A stretch of DNA of 44,047 bases from Nitrospirota bacterium (GTDB lineage: Bacteria > Nitrospirota > Thermodesulfovibrionia > SZUA-242): the NCBI GenBank assembly GCA_003235715.1, contig QJVM01000051.1, forward strand, positions 1 through 44,047, read 5' to 3'. Within the stretch, counting starts at the first letter, position 1. Each line of letters opens with the position of its first letter. The position numbers and the translations under genes are program-made. This document shows positions 26,669 to 34,858 of the stretch, in pieces. The notes under the pieces were generated by a model. The model was not told where the DNA came from. It saw only the letters and a program-made list of their open reading frames with translations, and did not search any database.

Positions 26669-26893
26669 GGCATGTCCATCTTACCATCCCGGTGAACACC
26701 GGACGTGGAGCTTCAAAGAATGCTTCGCCAGAAAGACCCCGCTACTGCATGGGTTGCTATCATCAGTCCCAGCCGGTATAGTAGACCCTGTTGCACGGAT
26801 TCCGGCAAGTCCCGGTTCCGACGTCTGGTTGAAACTCCCGCCTTCTGCCGCGTCGTTTCCCCGTTCTTGTTCCCGTCACAAAATTTCATCGGG

Positions 26894-26927
26894 CTTTAAC
26901 GTTCCTGTAACAATGCCGCGGTACGGT
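26894..26927 (+). promoter_or_regulatory. PhoB-type Pho box and -10 element upstream of two small genes
   Basis: CTTTAAC-GTTC-CTGTAAC is a 7-4-7 tandem repeat matching the Pho-box geometry (consensus CTGTCAT-type repeats 11 bp apart). Ten bases later comes TACGGT, a weak -10. The 18 bases TAACGTTCCTGTAACAAT are identical to the proximal box of pstS in this window. It lies 41 bp before the small gene at 26968, in a 299-bp gap otherwise empty. Confidence 0.7.
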
Positions 26928-26967
26928 ATACCCGAACGGGTGAAATCTCATTGAAGGAGGTGAACGC

Positions 26968-27189
26968 ATGATGGTGCTTGATATTCGAAGCGAGAAACAA
27001 AGTCTTCTGGCCGGCAGAGTCCGCCATGCCCTGACCGGAGGAGCCAACCGCCCCCGGGAGATGGCTGTGCTGGTCCGGTCGGCTGATGACGAACAGGTTG
27101 TGCAGTACCTCGCCGAACTCTCGGGTTACCGGACGACCTGTCCCATGGGCCCGGGTTCGCGAATCCTCGTCTTAAGAAAGGCGGCCTGA
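26968..27189 (+). CDS. Small unknown protein, possible TusA/SirA-like fold without the CPxP cysteine
   Basis: A 73-residue cytoplasmic protein with a near-perfect ribosome site (AAGGAGGTGA, four bases before ATG). It starts VLDIRSEKQ and continues with a helix, a strand MAVLVRS, a helix DEQVVQYLAELSGY and an end strand SRILVLRKA. This beta-alpha-beta-alpha-beta order and the LDIR start recall TusA/SirA or DUF2249 proteins, but the catalytic CPxP is absent and only one Cys (TTCPMG) is present. The family link is a guess from layout. It is the first gene behind a Pho box, so phosphate-starvation control is likely. The gene is probably real despite its size. Confidence 0.65.
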   Translation: MMVLDIRSEKQSLLAGRVRHALTGGANRPREMAVLVRSADDEQVVQYLAELSGYRTTCPMGPGSRILVLRKAA

Positions 27190-27246
27190 TGCCCGATAGG
27201 CAAAGAGACACGACGAGGACATTTCCGAAGAAAGGAGGAAGAATCG

Positions 27247-27453
27247 ATGAAGACCATGACCGTTTCAAAGGGCACGTATCGGACAGACATCCTGTTCTCG
27301 ACATCCTGCCCCTACCTTGATCCGCAGGATTCCGTCTGCGGCGCATCGCTGACACGGATTCACGTGGAAGAGGTCAAGAAAACCAAACTCTGCAGTACAG
27401 ACAATTCATGGGACTGCCCCATGCTTCTGTCCAAGATCCTGAGAAGGTCCTAG
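27247..27453 (+). CDS. Small four-cysteine protein of unknown function
   Basis: A 68-residue protein with four cysteines at 21, 31, 49 and 57 (TSCPYLDPQDSVCGAS and KLCSTDNSWDCPMLL), a pattern that could hold a zinc ion or iron-sulphur cluster. The tail is basic (SKILRRS). There is no signal peptide. Its ATG has AAAGGAGGAAG about nine bases upstream. It follows the first small gene by 57 bp and a terminator comes nine bases after the stop, so the two form one short transcription unit. Similar C-terminal CxxxxxxxCP patterns are common in short proteins of Geobacter- and Nitrospira-like bacteria, as I recall, but no function is known to me. Confidence 0.65.
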   Translation: MKTMTVSKGTYRTDILFSTSCPYLDPQDSVCGASLTRIHVEEVKKTKLCSTDNSWDCPMLLSKILRRS

Positions 27454-27461
27454 CCTTTCCC

Positions 27462-27485
27462 AAGGCTTGATCTCTCAGGCCTTTT
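27462..27485 (+). terminator. Intrinsic terminator of the small PhoB-linked unit
   Basis: AAGGCTTGA-TCTC-TCAGGCCTT forms a 9-bp stem with one G-U wobble and a 4-nt loop, running into TTTT and then CCCATTTT. It begins nine bases past the stop of the four-cysteine gene. Confidence 0.7.
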
Positions 27486-27567: not shown

Positions 27568-28269
27568 TCAGTCTTCCGAGGGTTGACGCGTCCGTGAGCT
27601 GTCGATGAACTCCTGGGGAGTCTTCATATGCCGGACGATCTTGCCATCGATGAGATAGATCACCAGTTCCGCCACATTTGTGGCATGGTCCGCAATCCGC
27701 TCCAGATACTTGGAGACATAACTGATCTTGATAGCCCTCTGGACCGCGCCGGAATCCCGCATCATGATGGCGGTCAGTTCCTCTATAACGGCGGCGTTCA
27801 GGTCGTCCACCTCGTCATCCCGAATGATCACGTCCCAGGCCAGCTGACGGTCACCCCGGACGAAAGCATCAATCGCGTCCCGCACCATCCCCTGGGCGAT
27901 CCGTCCCATGTGGGGGATATCCACGTAGGGTTTGAGGTTGGGTTCCTCATTCAACTCCAGGGCCCGCTCGGAAATATTGACCGAGTTGTCGGCGATCCGC
28001 TCCAGGTCTGACGTGATCTTCATGGCCGTCGTGATGAAACGGAGGTCTGATGCCATGGGTTGCAGGAGCGCCAGCAGCTTGATACACTCCTCGTCGACGG
28101 CCACATCCATGGCATTGATCACGTGGTCGTTCTCGATCACTTGCCGGGCCAGTTCACTGTCCCGGTCCACAAGAGAACGGACGGAATCCCGGATGGAGGT
28201 TTCCACGGAACCCGCCATCCGGATCAACATGCCCCGCAATTTTTCTATCTCTGCTCCCCTGGCCACCAT
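27568..28269 (-). CDS. phoU: Phosphate-signalling protein PhoU
   Basis: Cytoplasmic negative regulator that links the Pst transporter to the PhoR kinase when phosphate is plentiful. The protein has two repeats of a three-helix PhoU domain; the metal-binding E/D-xxx-D patterns appear as NAMDVAVDEECIKL and DLERIADNSVNISERAL in the first repeat and KYLERIADHATNVAELVIY in the second. The length of 233 residues is typical. The ATG overlaps the pstB stop by one base (TGATG), so the genes are translationally coupled. Last gene of pstSCAB-phoU. Confidence 0.96.
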   Translation of the reverse strand: MVARGAEIEKLRGMLIRMAGSVETSIRDSVRSLVDRDSELARQVIENDHVINAMDVAVDEECIKLLALLQPMASDLRFITTAMKITSDLERIADNSVNISERALELNEEPNLKPYVDIPHMGRIAQGMVRDAIDAFVRGDRQLAWDVIIRDDEVDDLNAAVIEELTAIMMRDSGAVQRAIKISYVSKYLERIADHATNVAELVIYLIDGKIVRHMKTPQEFIDSSRTRQPSED

Positions 28270-29033
28270 CAGCCGAACCTCCCTGTAATGTAATCCTCGG
28301 TCAGCTTGTTGCCCGGATTCGTGAAGATCCGGTCCGTATCGCCTATTTCAATGAGTTCCCCCAGCATGAAGAACCCCGTGGTATCTGAAATGCGGGCCGC
28401 CTGCTGCATGTTGTGCGTCACGATGATGATCGTCACCGTCCTCTTCAGGGCCACCACCAGTTCCTCGATCTTGGCTGTGGAAATCGGATCCAGCGCAGAA
28501 GTCGGTTCGTCAAAGAGAAGAACCTCCGGCTCAACCGCCAGAGCCCGGGCAATGACGAGGCGCTGCTGCTGTCCTCCCGAGAGCCGGTAGGCGCTTTTCC
28601 CTAGCTGGTCCTTCACCTCGTCCCAGAGGGCGGCGCCTCGGAGGGCATTTTCCACGCGTTCGGAGAGTTCAGAACGCTTGCGCAGGCCTTTCAATTTGAG
28701 CCCGTAAGCGATGTTGTCAAAGATACTCATCGGAAAAGGCGTGGGTTTCTGAAACACCATACCCACCCGGCTCCGAAGGTCGATGAGGTCCACATCGCGT
28801 GACAGGATGTTCCGTCCTCCATAGAGGATTTCCCCCTCATACCGGTTTCCGGGATAAAGATCGTGCATCCGGTTGAAACAGCGCAGAAGCGTGGTCTTGC
28901 CACAGCCAGAGGGACCGATGAGGGCGGTCACCGAGTGCTTGCGCGCATAAAGGGAAACCGCCTTCAGGGCGTGGACCCCTCCGGCGTAGTAAAAATCGAG
29001 ATTCTTGACCTCCAGAGTGCTCTCGGGCGTCAC
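28269..29033 (-). CDS. pstB: Phosphate ABC transporter ATPase PstB
   Basis: ATP-hydrolysing subunit of the high-affinity phosphate importer. Walker A is GPSGCGKTT, the signature LSGGQQQR and Walker [14 protein letters not shown], with the H loop in VTHNMQQA. The track ORF begins 34 codons earlier, inside pstA. I choose GTG 29033, which overlaps the pstA stop as GTGA and gives 254 residues, the family norm. The following gene starts inside its stop codon. Expression is expected to follow the Pho boxes ahead of pstS. Confidence 0.95.
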
Positions 29034-29875
29034 CGATGACTGTACCTCCAGCGAATGATAGCGCGACCGGCCACCGTGAGGATCAGGATAAAAAGCGTGA
29101 TCACCAGGGAGGCCGCCCAGGCCTGGGTGTGCCATTCCTCGAAGGGGCCCATAGCGTACTGGAAGATCGTAGCCGTCAGGGAGGCGATGGGCTGTCCCAT
29201 GTCCGCCGAGTAATAGGCGTTATTGAAGGAGGTGAACAGCAGGGGCGCCGTTTCTCCGGAAACACGGGCCACCGAAAGAAGTACCCCGGTCAGGATGCCG
29301 GTGGCGGCTCCCCGGTAGACTACCTGGATGATGACCTTGTAATAAGGAGCCCCGAGAGCGAAAGCCGCCTCCCGCTGGCTCCAGGGAACCAGAGTGAGCA
29401 TATCCTCTGTCGTCCGGACGACCACGGGGATCATGATCAGGGCCAGGGCCGCGGCTCCGGCCCACCCGCTGAAGTGTCCCAGGGGCCTCACAAGAACCGC
29501 GTAAACAAACGTCCCGATGACAATGGAGGGAACGCTGACCATGATATCGGCCAGGATGCTGATGAACCGGGCAAACCCCTTGCCGCGAGCGTACTCGGCC
29601 AGAAAGGTTCCCCCCAGGATACCGAGGGGCACTCCGAACAGCGTTGCAAAAAACGTGATAAGCAACTGTCCGACAAACGCGTTCCGCATCCCTCCACCCG
29701 CCACTCCCGGCGGGGCAGGGTCCTTCATGAAGAGCTCGGGAGTCAGAGCCCCGATTCCGTGTATCACCACGTCGCTCAGAATAAAGAAAAGCCAGAACAG
29801 CCCCAGCGCCGCCGCCAGCGTGCTCAGGGAAAGCCCTCCATATCCCCGCAGTTTTCTCCACTGCTGGCCGGTCAC
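29030..29875 (-). CDS. pstA: Phosphate ABC transporter permease PstA
   Basis: Inner-membrane permease subunit, 281 residues with six predicted helices. The family pattern is visible in [35 protein letters not shown] and the cytoplasmic coupling loop [26 protein letters not shown], which contacts PstB. The start overlaps the pstC stop by 4 bp (ATGA), and its own stop overlaps pstB by 4 bp. It forms a heterodimer with PstC. Confidence 0.96.
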
Positions 29876-30918
29876 GCGCGCTCCTTTCTCTGGGCCCGGA
29901 GCAGGATGTACTTGGCCAGAGCCAGTACAACCAGGCTGAAGACAAAGAGAATGAGGGCCAGGTGAAAAAGAGCCGAAAGATAAGTGTCTGAGTCGGCCTC
30001 GGTGAATTCATTGGCCAGGGTCACGGTTATACTGGCGGCACCGTCAAAGAGGGACGACGTGATCTGGTGGTTGTTGCCGAGAACGAAGGCCACGGCCATT
30101 GTTTCGCCCAGGGCCCTGCCCAGCGACAACACAATACCCCCGAAAACTCCAAGTCTGGCGTGGGGAAGGATCACGTCCCGGATCACCTCCCACTTGGTGG
30201 CCCCCAACCCGTAGGCCGACTCCTTGACAAGAGCGGGGGTCAGGTTGAAGGCGTCCCGGGAGATGCTGGCCGCGAAAGGCACGATCATGATGCTCAGGAT
30301 CACGCTGGCCGTAAACAGGTCGATACCCATAGGGGTTCCGGCAAACAGCTGTCCGATGACCGGGATGTCGCCAAAGACGCTCTGAAGAGCGGGCTCCACA
30401 TGGTCGGCCATGATCGGGGCCAGAGTGAAGAGCCCCCACATCCCGAAGACGATGCTGGGGATCGCCGCGAGCAGTTCAATGGCTACCCCGATAGGGCCCT
30501 TCAGGAAGTTGGGAGAGACCTCGGAAAGAAAGATGGCAATCCCGAGGGCCACCGGGATGGCGAACACGAGGGCCAGCACCGTGGTTACGGCCGTGCCGAA
30601 GAGACCTGTGGCCGCACCAAAAAGTTCCTCTACCGGGTTCCACTCGGTCGAGAAGATAAAACCTATGGGGCCAAACTTCTCGATTGAAAGAACGGATTCG
30701 GACAGAAGGACCCCCAGAATCCCGAGAACGATGACGATGATGAAGACCCCGGCTGCGCCGGTGAGCGTCGCGAACAGAACATCGACCGGGGATCGCCGCC
30801 TGAAGAAAGCCGCAAGCCCTCGGGGTTCTGCCCGTGACAAAACAGGACCGGGCAAGGCCGTGGCCTCGCCCGTTCCCGGATCGTCCCTGTCAGGTTTTAT
30901 ATACCCGCCTTCTTCCAA
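29872..30918 (-). CDS. pstC: Phosphate ABC transporter permease PstC
   Basis: Second permease of the importer, 348 residues. A charged N-terminal cytoplasmic tail of about 45 residues precedes the helices; the ABC coupling loop reads DAFNLTPALVKESAYGLGATKWEVI and the glycine-rich GGIVLSLGRALGETMAVAFVLGN follows. The start overlaps the end of pstS by 22 bp; a later start is possible since the tail is not strongly conserved. It follows the pstSCAB order. Confidence 0.95.
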   Translation of the reverse strand: MEEGGYIKPDRDDPGTGEATALPGPVLSRAEPRGLAAFFRRRSPVDVLFATLTGAAGVFIIVIVLGILGVLLSESVLSIEKFGPIGFIFSTEWNPVEELFGAATGLFGTAVTTVLALVFAIPVALGIAIFLSEVSPNFLKGPIGVAIELLAAIPSIVFGMWGLFTLAPIMADHVEPALQSVFGDIPVIGQLFAGTPMGIDLFTASVILSIMIVPFAASISRDAFNLTPALVKESAYGLGATKWEVIRDVILPHARLGVFGGIVLSLGRALGETMAVAFVLGNNHQITSSLFDGAASITVTLANEFTEADSDTYLSALFHLALILFVFSLVVLALAKYILLRAQRKERA

Positions 30919-31913
30919 TACTCCCTCACCTTGTTCTTCAGGCTCTCCGGAAGAGGCACGTACACCAACCGCTCGGCCGTGGCGTCTCCGCTCTTGAAAG
31001 CCCAGTCAAAGAACCGGGTCGTTTTCAGATTCGATTCGGACTTCTCGCGGGCCAGGAGAATAAACGTTGCCCCGGCAATCGGCCAGGCCTTGGCTCCGGG
31101 CGCATTGGTCAGCCAGAGATGAAAATGTCTGGCCGGGTCGAAATCCGCGGAGGTCGCGGCTTCCTTGAAGGATTCCATGTCCGGCTCCACAAAGGTCCCG
31201 GCCGCGTTCTTGAGCTGGATATGTGCCAGTTTATTTTGCTTCGCATAGGCAAATTCCACATATCCAATGGCATTGCGGGTCCGCTTCACGTAGTTGGCCA
31301 CCCCCTCGTTTCCCTTTCCCCCGATTCCCGCGGGCCACTTCACCGCCTTGCCGGCCCCCACCGTGTCTTTCCAGGCGGAGCACGCCTCGCTCAAATACGT
31401 GGTGAAGATGGCGGTCGTGCCAGACCCGTCCGACCGGTAGACCACCGTGACAGATTCGTCCGGGAGCTTCAATCCTGGATTCAAAGCGGTCACCGCCGGG
31501 TCGTTCCACTTCTTTATCTCCCCGAGAAGGACTCGGCAGAGAGTCTCCGAATCCAGCCTGAGGTCTCCCGCCTTCACTCCCTTGATGTTGACCACAGGAA
31601 CGACCCCGCCGATCACGGCCGGAAACTGGAGCAGCTTTTCCTTCTCCGCATCCTCAGGAGACAGAGGGGCATCGGAGGCGCCGAAATCAACGGTGCGTGC
31701 CGTGATCTGGCGCTGACCCCCGCCGGAGCCAATGGACTGGTAGTTCACCTGAACTCCGGTGATCCCGTTGTACTCGTAGGCCCAGGCCGAATACACAGGA
31801 AAGGGGAATGAAGCTCCGGCGCCGTTCAGCCTTTCAGCCGCCTGAACGCCGGTAACCGCGACCAGCAGAACGAGCACGACAAGGATGGTGCTTTGAACAA
31901 AAGGGTTCTTCAT
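30897..31913 (-). CDS. pstS: Periplasmic phosphate-binding protein PstS
   Basis: Captures inorganic phosphate in the periplasm and delivers it to PstCA. A signal peptide ends near VTGVQA-AE. Ligand-binding segments are typical: LNGAGASFPFPVYSAW, YQSIGSGGGQRQI, DFGASDAPL and YRSDGSGTTAIF. The length of 338 residues is normal, with no lipobox, so it is soluble rather than a lipoprotein. GGAGGAA precedes the ATG. It is the first gene of pstSCAB-phoU, with a Pho box 33 bp upstream and another about 190 bp upstream. Confidence 0.97.
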   Translation of the reverse strand: MKNPFVQSTILVVLVLLVAVTGVQAAERLNGAGASFPFPVYSAWAYEYNGITGVQVNYQSIGSGGGQRQITARTVDFGASDAPLSPEDAEKEKLLQFPAVIGGVVPVVNIKGVKAGDLRLDSETLCRVLLGEIKKWNDPAVTALNPGLKLPDESVTVVYRSDGSGTTAIFTTYLSEACSAWKDTVGAGKAVKWPAGIGGKGNEGVANYVKRTRNAIGYVEFAYAKQNKLAHIQLKNAAGTFVEPDMESFKEAATSADFDPARHFHLWLTNAPGAKAWPIAGATFILLAREKSESNLKTTRFFDWAFKSGDATAERLVYVPLPESLKNKVREYWKKAGI

Positions 31914-31929: not shown

Positions 31930-31963
31930 AGTCTACGATCGAATTGTTACAGGAACGTTACAG
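31930..31963 (-). promoter_or_regulatory. Proximal Pho box and -10 of pstS
   Basis: On the minus strand CTGTAAC-GTTC-CTGTAAC (31946-31963) is a perfect tandem 7-4-7 repeat, the classic PhoB site. Ten bases later TAGACT (31930-31935) serves as a -10. This places transcription just before the pstS ribosome site. Confidence 0.85.
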
Positions 31964-32086: not shown

Positions 32087-32120
32087 ACACTACAAGCCCC
32101 ATGTTACAGGATAATGACAA
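32087..32120 (-). promoter_or_regulatory. Distal second Pho box and -10 upstream of pstS
   Basis: On the minus strand TTGTCAT-TATC-CTGTAAC (32103-32120) repeats the 7-4-7 layout, and TAGTGT (32087-32092) follows at exactly ten bases, the same spacing as in the proximal box. It would give a transcript with a leader of about 170 nt before pstS. Confidence 0.6.
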
Positions 32121-32201
32121 TGAGGTTAAATTTCGGACAGGACAGGACCGACCTGTGGTCGAAGACCGGCCAGAGAGGAAAATAGGGGAACGACCCAAGG
32201 G

Positions 32202-32246: not shown

Positions 32247-33998
32247 CTATGCAAGCGGATCCGTAAGGATACGGACCGTAGTCCCTTTTCCAGGACGGCT
32301 TTCCACGTTCATCTGCCATCCATGGGCACGCACGAGGTGCTTCACAATGGCTAGTCCCAGACCCGTGCCGCCTTCAGCCCTCGACCGGGCCGGGTCCACG
32401 CGGTAGAACCGCTCGCCGATACGGGGAAGATGTTCTTCCGGGATGCCCACTCCGGTGTCTCGAACAAACAGGGATACCCCGCTGTCCACGGCTTCCGCGC
32501 CGGCGGTAACCTCGCCGTGGGTCGTGTACTTCAGGGCATTGTCGACAAGGTTTGTGAGGATCTGCACCAGACAGCGCTCGTCCGCCCGGACTGCAGGCAC
32601 GCTTGGAGAGAGGATCACCTTAAGAGAAACCCCCTTGTCCCGCGCCTTCCGTTCGAAGTTCCCCACCACGCTCTGGAAGACCCCCTCAAGGGCGACGTCC
32701 TTCTTCTGTATCTGAACCGTTCCGGATTCGAGACTGGAAATGGTCAGCAGGTCATCCACAAGACTGTTGATCCGGTCACTGTTGGAACGGATGATTCCAA
32801 GAAAGCGCAGGGCCGTCTCCCGGTCTTGGAACCCTTCCTCGAGGAGGGTGTCGGCAAATCCCCGGATGGACGTGATCGGGGTCTTGATCTCGTGGGACAC
32901 GTTGGCTACAAAATCCCGTCGCATTCTTTCTAGCTGCTTGAGTCGGGTGATGTCACTGAACAGGAGCACGCAGGCCGGTTCACCGGCCGTCACCACCTCG
33001 AAGAAGGGCGCCACCTTCACGATGACATGCCGTTCACGCCCCTCGAGCAAGAGGGTAAGCTCCTTTTCCTCCGGAAGCCGGGTCTTCTTGGCCCGGTCGA
33101 GCAGAGCCAGGAATTCCGGGTTCCGGACGACTTCCGTGACCGGCCGGTTCACCAACGACTGGTCAAAGAAGTCCGAGGCCGCAGCGCTGTACAGCACGAT
33201 GGTATCCGAAGCATTGATGATCAGCAGGGCATCGGGGATGTTCTTCAGGATCGTGCCCAGGCGTTCGTTTTCAAGCTCGTTGGAGGAAATAAGTTCCCGC
33301 AGTTCCTCGGCCATTGTGTTCAGGTTCGTGGCGATCTGACCAAACTCGCCCACCCCCTCGAGGATCAGGCGGCTTTTCAGTTCCCCCCGGGCCAGGGACG
33401 TGGAGAAATCCGTCACCTGTCCCACCATGCGTCGAAGCCTGACCGCTTGCCACAGGGAAAAACCGCCCGTCACGAAAAGAAGCACGATAAGGGCACCCAG
33501 AACCCGGTGGCGAAGCTCCTGAATGGAATCGTTGACCGCCTTGAGCGGAACAGCCAGCCGTATGAACCCTGAGGGTTTCTCAGCGGTGCCCGTCCTGAGG
33601 GCGAAATAGAGGAAGTCGTAGCCCAGGGTCGTGCTGAACCGAACCGAAGACCCGGTGTTCTGCAGTATGGATTGCTGGATCTCGGGCCGCCTCAGATGGT
33701 TCTCCATCTCTGCGGCGGCTCCGTCCGAATCTCCAAGGACCACGCCGTCCCAGCTTACGATCGTGACCCTTGACCCGATACGGGCTTTGATTTTCCGGCA
33801 GGAGTCATCCAGGTTCCCCCCCCTGCCGGGGTCCAGCTGCTCCGCGATGAGGATCGCCTGCTTCTTCAGGCTTTCGGTGAGATTCTCGATGCGCGTCTGG
33901 CGCACGACCTGGGTGATGTATATCTCGGAAAACAGGAGGGACACCCCAACCAGCAAGGCAAATACGACCAGGACCGGCCCGAAATATCCCCTTCTCAC
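32247..33998 (-). CDS. phoR: Phosphate-regulon sensor histidine kinase PhoR
   Basis: Membrane sensor kinase of 583 residues that phosphorylates PhoB under low phosphate. Two membrane helices (about 8-30 and 168-190) bracket a periplasmic region larger than in E. coli, so it may sense more than PstB/PhoU. A HAMP segment, a PAS domain (LENERLGTILKNIPDALLIINASDTIVLYS), the HisKA box VANVSHEIKTPITSIRGFADTLLEEG and a GHKL ATPase (NLVDNALKYT, DTGVGIP, GGTGLGLAIVKHLV) follow in order. Its ATG overlaps the phoB stop by 4 bp. Confidence 0.93.
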   Translation of the reverse strand: MRRGYFGPVLVVFALLVGVSLLFSEIYITQVVRQTRIENLTESLKKQAILIAEQLDPGRGGNLDDSCRKIKARIGSRVTIVSWDGVVLGDSDGAAAEMENHLRRPEIQQSILQNTGSSVRFSTTLGYDFLYFALRTGTAEKPSGFIRLAVPLKAVNDSIQELRHRVLGALIVLLFVTGGFSLWQAVRLRRMVGQVTDFSTSLARGELKSRLILEGVGEFGQIATNLNTMAEELRELISSNELENERLGTILKNIPDALLIINASDTIVLYSAAASDFFDQSLVNRPVTEVVRNPEFLALLDRAKKTRLPEEKELTLLLEGRERHVIVKVAPFFEVVTAGEPACVLLFSDITRLKQLERMRRDFVANVSHEIKTPITSIRGFADTLLEEGFQDRETALRFLGIIRSNSDRINSLVDDLLTISSLESGTVQIQKKDVALEGVFQSVVGNFERKARDKGVSLKVILSPSVPAVRADERCLVQILTNLVDNALKYTTHGEVTAGAEAVDSGVSLFVRDTGVGIPEEHLPRIGERFYRVDPARSRAEGGTGLGLAIVKHLVRAHGWQMNVESRPGKGTTVRILTDPLA

Positions 33999-34696
33999 AG
34001 GTCCGCCTCCACGTAGTACCCGATGCCGCGCCGGGTCTTGATGTACATCGGCGAGGAAGGGTCGTCTTCGATTCGGGACCTGAGACGACGGATGTGGACA
34101 TCCACGGTCCGGGGTTCCACAAAAGCCTCGTCCTTCCAGACCGCGTCCAGCAGCTGGTCCCGGCTGAAGATACGGCCCTTTTTCTGAACCAGATAGTGAA
34201 GCAGGCGGAATTCGGTCGCGCTGAGGTCCACCTTCTGTCCGTTCTTCGTGACCGTGTAGGCCTCCGGATCGATGATCAGGCCCTCGAACTGAATCCGTCC
34301 GGTGGCTTCTTCGGAAGCCGACATTCTTCGCAGCACGGCCTTGATCCGGGCTAAAAGCTCCCGCGGGCTGAAAGGCTTCGTGATATAGTCGTCGGCCCCG
34401 AGTTCCAGTCCGAGAACGCGGTCCACTTCTTCGCTCCGGGCCGTAAGCATGATAATCGGGGTCAATTTCGTGGCGGGATTTCCCCGAACCATCCGACAGA
34501 TTTCCATCCCCGGAAGCCCCGGAAGCATCAGATCCAGAAGGATCAGATCAAAGGATTCCTGACGGATCCGGGACAAGGCCTCTGCTCCGTCACGGACCAC
34601 CGTCGCCTGATAGCCCTCTTTCGAAAGGGTATGGAGCACCAGGTCGGCAATATCCCTTTCATCTTCGACAATGATTATCCGTCTCAACGTGGGCAT
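33995..34696 (-). CDS. phoB: Phosphate-regulon response regulator PhoB
   Basis: OmpR-family transcription factor of 233 residues. The receiver domain starts RRIIIVEDERDIADLVL and has the phospho-acceptor Asp in FDLILLDLMLPGLPG and the Lys in DYITKPFSPRELLARI. The winged-helix DNA-binding domain is QKVDLSATEFRLLHYLVQKKGRIFSRDQLLDAVW with VDVHIRRLRSRIE. The track ORF (from 34816) adds an unrelated 40 residues; ATG 34696 or GTG 34705 (with AAAGG) fits the family. It is expected to bind the three Pho boxes found in this window. Confidence 0.94.
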   Translation of the reverse strand: MPTLRRIIIVEDERDIADLVLHTLSKEGYQATVVRDGAEALSRIRQESFDLILLDLMLPGLPGMEICRMVRGNPATKLTPIIMLTARSEEVDRVLGLELGADDYITKPFSPRELLARIKAVLRRMSASEEATGRIQFEGLIIDPEAYTVTKNGQKVDLSATEFRLLHYLVQKKGRIFSRDQLLDAVWKDEAFVEPRTVDVHIRRLRSRIEDDPSSPMYIKTRRGIGYYVEADL

Positions 34697-34858
34697 GAAA
34701 TTCACGGGTGCCTTTCGGTCCCGGAGAGCCCCAGAACGCCGGGGCCTCGTCTTCATTTCAAAAACAGGGTATCCTAAGAACCAGGTCTGCGATAAACCGT
34801 GGAACACCCTGTCCATGGTACTACATTACCTGTCATTTTTCTGCGCAAAGGAGGCATT

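Follow-up and report, generated by a model that had tools for sequence, protein, structure and literature searches.

The two small genes that face the pst operon of this Nitrospirota bacterium, here called ORF1 and ORF2, most likely form a PhoB-activated operon of the Pho regulon. As judged from its sequence, ORF2 founds a family that is undescribed in Pfam and NCBIfam, and this family is very probably a real, hitherto unstudied part of the phosphate-shortage response in these bacteria. An undescribed family thereby gains a physiological setting, phosphate starvation, from two independent lines, the gene neighborhood and the promoter. Coordinates refer to the window, which is the whole 44,047-nucleotide stretch of DNA that was analyzed.

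Layout of the unit and of the pst-pho locus

The unit consists of the following elements (source of each in brackets; PWM, position-weight matrix).

26883..26911, plus strand: triple Pho box ATTTCAT N4 CTTTAAC N4 CTGTAAC, 11-bp repeat (sequence; PWM; whole-genome patterns)
26922..26927, plus strand: -10-like hexamer TACGGT, ten bases 3' of the box (sequence)
26954..26962, plus strand: ORF1 ribosome-binding site AAGGAGGTG (sequence)
26968..27189, plus strand: ORF1, 73 aa, TusA/SirA-like by predicted fold, CPxP cysteine absent (model; no Pfam or NCBIfam match)
27232..27239, plus strand: ORF2 ribosome-binding site AAGGAGGA (sequence)
27247..27453, plus strand: ORF2, 68 aa, with Cys21, Cys31, Cys49 and Cys57; conserved undescribed family (homologue searches)
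27462..27483, plus strand: 9-bp inverted repeat AAGGCTTGA-TCTC-TCAGGCCTT, weak terminator candidate (sequence)

The initial annotation had described a 7-4-7 tandem repeat with 18 bases identical to the proximal box of pstS, a -10 element at the pstS-like distance of ten bases, and two short ORFs (73 and 68 residues) with strong ribosome sites and four cysteines in the second product, in a unit facing the pst operon; all of these are present in the sequence, and the unit is indeed convergent with phoU-pstBACS. The box as read there is CTTTAAC-GTTC-CTGTAAC (26894-26911), and the 18-mer TAACGTTCCTGTAACAAT is common to it and to the pstS proximal box, the latter on the minus strand. A further repeat that had gone unmentioned, ATTTCAT at 26883-26889, lies 11 bp 5' of the repeat at 26894. 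At pstS the spacing from box to -10 is identical (hexamer TAGACT, ten bases), and relatives carry TAAGCT or TATGCT hexamers at equal spacing. Known PhoB promoters have the same ten-base spacing (PMC1906773). GC by codon position in ORF1 (0.68/0.49/0.66) resembles that of its neighbors, and ORF2 (0.41/0.46/0.71) retains the high third position. The weakest element of the unit is the terminator. The 9-bp stem that had been called one is there, but its T-run is poor, the plus-strand terminator scan does not list it, and folding of this stretch at minimum energy yields another hairpin (z = -1.5), so that it is a weak candidate.

The pst-pho locus in the window comprises the following features.

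27568..28269, minus strand: phoU (PF01895)
28269..29060, minus strand: pstB (PF00005, named by context)
29030..29875, minus strand: pstA (PF00528, named by context)
29872..30918, minus strand: pstC (PF00528, named by context)
30897..31913, minus strand: pstS (PF12849)
31945..31963, minus strand: pstS proximal Pho box CTGTAACGTTCCTGTAACA (sequence; whole-genome pattern)
32097..32133, minus strand: pstS distal triple Pho box (PWM from other genomes, 30.5 bits; patterns)
32247..33998, minus strand: phoR-like histidine kinase (PF02518, PF00512)
33995..34816, minus strand: phoB-like response regulator (PF00072, PF00486)

Rarity of the box and a Pho-box motif from relatives

Whole-genome pattern searches revealed that the box is rare in its own genome. 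The pattern YTKWMAYNNTCCTGTAACA, with at most one mismatch, has three matches in the whole 3.24-Mb assembly, all inside the window (the unit, pstS proximal and pstS distal), while the reversed-pattern control has none. When a longer three-repeat pattern was applied with up to three mismatches, only the unit and the pstS distal box were found in the whole genome. Since both patterns were drawn up with the sites in view, these counts demonstrate rarity, not independence, and the independent test is a PWM from other genomes.

The DNA 5' of ORF2 homologues carries a common element, and a 37-bp PWM (consensus AAATTTAAc.t..CcTTAATAaTCCTGTAACATtc.T) was built from 40 distinct sites there, with the window left out of training. 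This matrix exceeded 8 bits in 42 of 75 upstream regions of homologues, against 0.4 in shuffles. Counting two heptamers against shuffles was too blunt to reveal the box in many homologues, and the 37-bp PWM was used instead. The scan of the 44-kb window with this PWM is the main independent test of the unit's promoter: the pstS distal box scored 30.5 bits, the unit (26881-26917) scored 30.1 bits, and the next site reached 7.5 bits. Matrix scoring had been named as a check on the claim that the unit stands under a pstS-type Pho box, and a matrix trained elsewhere bears that claim out.

Across 0.89 Mb of related loci, 235 sites reached 18 bits or more, compared with none in the shuffled loci. 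The sites precede ORF2 homologues (56), pstS (44), a family-21 glycosyltransferase (GT21; 35), pstC (16) and phoB (5), with PsiE (PF06146), alkaline phosphatase (PF00245), methylglyoxal synthase, an OlsB-like acyltransferase and a porin as further targets, a list that is not the full regulon since the scanned loci were picked around ORF2. Because pstS, phoB, PsiE and alkaline phosphatase are among the targets and the shuffled loci gave no sites, we take the motif to be a Pho box. The unit has this box in common with the accepted Pho genes pstS, phoA and psiE, and carries it at the promoter position, ten bases from the -10. The matrix can serve as a Pho-box model for a group that is mostly uncultured, and it gives a first outline of the group's Pho regulon.

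The arrangement resembles the Pho regulon of the E. coli PhoB/PhoR type in its tandem box of 11-bp period, in the ten bases to the -10, in the placement of the box before both pstS and the unit, and in the adjacent phoB-phoR genes. It differs in that the E. coli box is CTGTCAT-N4-CTGTCAT, whereas the lineage consensus here has three repeats (TTTAAY-N4-CTTAAT-N4-CTGTAAC), and in that the targets here include undescribed microproteins. Cyanobacterial SphR boxes consist of three tandem CTTAACCT repeats (PMC1906773); the three repeats, the TTAA core and the 11-bp period are alike, but the promoter-proximal repeat here is of the CTGTAAC kind.

The two pstS boxes lie ~150 bp apart. The distal one matches the lineage consensus (30.5 bits), while the proximal one scores 0.7 bits with the lineage PWM despite its 18 bases in common with the unit box. 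Other small proteins were also seen with Pho boxes in the relatives. These include a zinc-ribbon protein of 98-108 aa (PF12760/PF03811-like; L018:5761-, L019:10506, L204:3351, L151:12642, L144:7322, L149:6857-) and a protein of 62-82 aa that begins like Rho_N/SAP and has cysteines clustered at its C-terminus (L019:9931, L204:5924, L207:1692-). Further small four-cysteine families (CPHLKG...C...LC...FEAC; KCPHL...C...YC...KCPF) lie behind a Pho box or beside pst (L018:6102-, L204:3031, L175:6908-, L199:7210, L021:10876-, L174:8047).

The ORF2 family and its neighborhood

A single-sequence search with ORF2 gave homologues in 15 of 61 genomes, its own included, and a profile search gave them in 90 of 230 genomes of the class Thermodesulfovibrionia (Nitrospirota), spread over 57 of 115 genera. 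The family was found in 66 genomes of a phylum sample of 395, eight of these outside the class. A scan of 84,980 species with one peptide pattern, which divergent members would escape, returned 37 loci, 36 titled Nitrospirota (Nitrospirae, Nitrospira, Thermodesulfovibrionales) and one titled uncultured bacterium. Cys21, Cys31, Ala33, Cys49, Cys57 and Pro58 are invariant in 30 family sequences; ORF2 fits the family signature CPY...CxAS...C...DxCPxxL followed by a basic C-terminus, the latter with the conserved segment F-L-x-K-x-L-R-R-R. Neither ORF1 nor ORF2 matched a family in Pfam or NCBIfam at E up to 10, 15 ORF2 homologues gave only scattered sub-threshold matches in Pfam, and a sequence search of solved structures with both profiles stayed at chance level (best E 0.45 and 0.61). 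Searches of open-access papers for these small proteins returned nothing relevant, which, with the empty Pfam and NCBIfam searches, agrees with the earlier view that they lie outside any known Pho regulon. An AlphaFold model of ORF2 built on 30 sequences was unusable (pLDDT 48).

For the neighborhood census, 79 loci from 72 genomes were collected by ORF2 sequence similarity alone, and the gene context is therefore an unbiased readout. Within 6 kb of the ORF2 homologue, any pst or phoU match was present in 41 of the 79 loci, GT21 in 38, and either in 63. In a stricter count that omits PstB, since lone PstB matches may be other ABC ATPases, PstS, PstC, PstA or PhoU lay within 6 kb in 37 of 79 loci, 35 of them on the same strand. 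The gene immediately 3' of the homologue is pstS in 24 loci, the homologue stands directly behind GT21 in 23, and a metallophosphoesterase is near it in five; 16 loci, several on short contigs, lack both pst and GT21 within 6 kb. By position alone ~0.8% would be expected, by our own estimate from operon and genome size, and the binomial p for proximity to pst is ~1e-55, a value that is overstated because the genomes are related. The many genera and the differing arrangements make chance proximity to pst untenable.

The gene is nonetheless patchy, as both the closest sampled relative and a genome of the bacterium's own family (G002) are without ORF2. The former (G001, PhoU 76% identical) has the equivalent pst operon with neither ORF1 nor ORF2 there, and no ORF2 anywhere in its genome. 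Conservation along with the pst locus, on which the initial annotation had staked its reading, thus fails in this closest relative but not for the class as a whole; the proposed search for the gene pair beside pst in relatives succeeded for ORF2 (37 of 79 loci) but not for ORF1, which showed no sequence link. In G002, another small cysteine protein (MCPKFNKGICEVAGIEPEYIEC...) is encoded just 5' of pstS (L134:696-869).

Possible roles of the two proteins

The single-sequence AlphaFold models of ORF1 (pLDDT 62-83 over five models, best 83) have the order beta-alpha-beta-alpha-beta-beta, and the best Foldseek match was the SirA-like 3hz7 (TM 0.78, E 3e-3). Structural realignment gave a tie between Smr (Z 10.0) and SirA-like (Z 9.8), and the predicted fold is also common to Smr, Alba and IF3-C. 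Although the predicted fold is like that of the TusA/SirA family, ORF1 has no Pfam match and no cysteine after the first strand, hence no CPxP cysteine, its sole cysteine being Cys58. The models suggest that ORF1 folds like TusA/SirA but lacks the cysteine that would carry sulfur; it is probably a small binding partner. The profile of pst-linked TusA-like proteins (A3) did not recover ORF1 at E 0.01 (1.8 bits, rank 11 of 2001 when set against 2000 shuffles), so the tie of ORF1 to these proteins is one of fold and place only. TusA-like genes occur in seven census loci with an ORF2 homologue, six with pst (L028, L139, L141, L145, L146, L147) and the seventh with GT21 (L159), and L136 has a TusA-like gene beside pst without ORF2 proper. 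A search of the class with ORF1 gave weak matches only (best E 0.009); the best of them (L208:306-1734, in G086) is a TusA-like protein that lacks CPxP, its gene following one for a YeeE/YedE-like membrane protein and not pst. The assignment of both small proteins to the phosphate-starvation response is strongly supported for ORF2 by its family, its pst/phoBR neighborhood and its box; for ORF1, which directly follows the box, support comes from the promoter and not from a family of its own.

In the most likely scheme, PhoR would phosphorylate PhoB at low phosphate, PhoB would bind the three-repeat box at 26883-26911 in place of a -35 element, and ORF1-ORF2 would then be transcribed in parallel with pstSCAB-phoU and would rise at low phosphate. 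The four invariant cysteines of ORF2 may together bind a single metal ion, either zinc or an iron-sulfur cluster, while its basic C-terminal segment may dock onto a partner; as that partner we would first suspect the phosphate-starvation membrane apparatus, because the gene stands before pstS or directly behind GT21. These two usual settings suggest a general starvation role rather than a dedicated subunit of either. From its sequence, we tentatively picture ORF2 as a metal- or thiol-holding adaptor, and if the cysteines do bind metal, there would be an unrecognized link of phosphate to metal or redox state. A speculative extension is that small cysteine proteins as yet undescribed, namely the ORF2 family and at least four other cysteine-rich types, some paired with TusA-like proteins, make up a whole set within the Thermodesulfovibrionia Pho regulon. 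They might act as a metal- or thiol-dependent layer of the phosphate-starvation response, perhaps one through which the cell's redox or metal state is coupled to Pst/PhoR signaling or to the synthesis of phosphate-free lipids.

The same cysteines could instead serve metal buffering, in which polyphosphate and nucleotide ligands are lost on phosphate starvation and small C4 proteins take up the freed zinc or iron or supply zinc to alkaline phosphatase. We consider this unlikely: several unrelated small cysteine-rich proteins, including the Zn-ribbon type (PF12760/PF03811), do stand behind Pho boxes in relatives, but four cysteines in conserved surroundings resemble a structural site, not a metallothionein, and no metal gene was found among the recurring neighbors tested. 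Arsenic defense appears improbable. It would have pst let arsenate in and ORF2 bind the arsenite from an ArsC-like reductase, hence the co-induction, and small cysteine-rich proteins suit such thiol chemistry. Twelve of the 79 loci do have an ArsC-like gene no more than 6 kb away, and four Pho-box sites precede such a gene, but the other 67 have none nearby, and we know of no arsenite site that fits the ORF2 cysteine spacing. That the small genes are not phosphate-regulated, the box likeness being due to chance or serving another gene, would agree with the absence of the unit from G001 but is very hard to reconcile with a box that sits where a promoter would, followed by a -10 and SD, is oriented to ORF1 5 kb from the pst promoter, is detected by a PWM trained elsewhere, and also stands 5' of ORF2 homologues with no pst in reach (e.g., L019, L144). 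A role of ORF1 as a genuine sulfur carrier (TusA), with the four-cysteine ORF2 as recipient or relay of the sulfur, would match the predicted fold of ORF1 and the repeated pairing of TusA-like and C4 genes at seven loci, but it is highly unlikely from sequence, as the CPxP cysteine is missing in ORF1 and in most pst-linked TusA-like proteins.

With ORF1-ORF2 read as a Pho-regulated unit, the setting of the ORF2 family is also similar to the PlcP-Agt lipid renovation of Pseudomonas (PMC8528852), in that a Pho-boxed lipid-type glycosyltransferase recurs near ORF2 homologues; in contrast to that system, the glycosyltransferase here is of family 21 (PF13506), and the metallophosphoesterase of five loci is a possible counterpart of PlcP. 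The family-21 enzyme probably serves phosphate-free lipid synthesis; in this window, none was seen close to the unit. Together with GT21 (38 of 79 loci), an OlsB-like acyltransferase suggests that phosphate-free lipid synthesis belongs to the group's Pho regulon. The OlsB-like acyltransferase (PF13444) was seen behind a Pho box at L149:4451, L204:5795-, L151:15384- and L175:4605.
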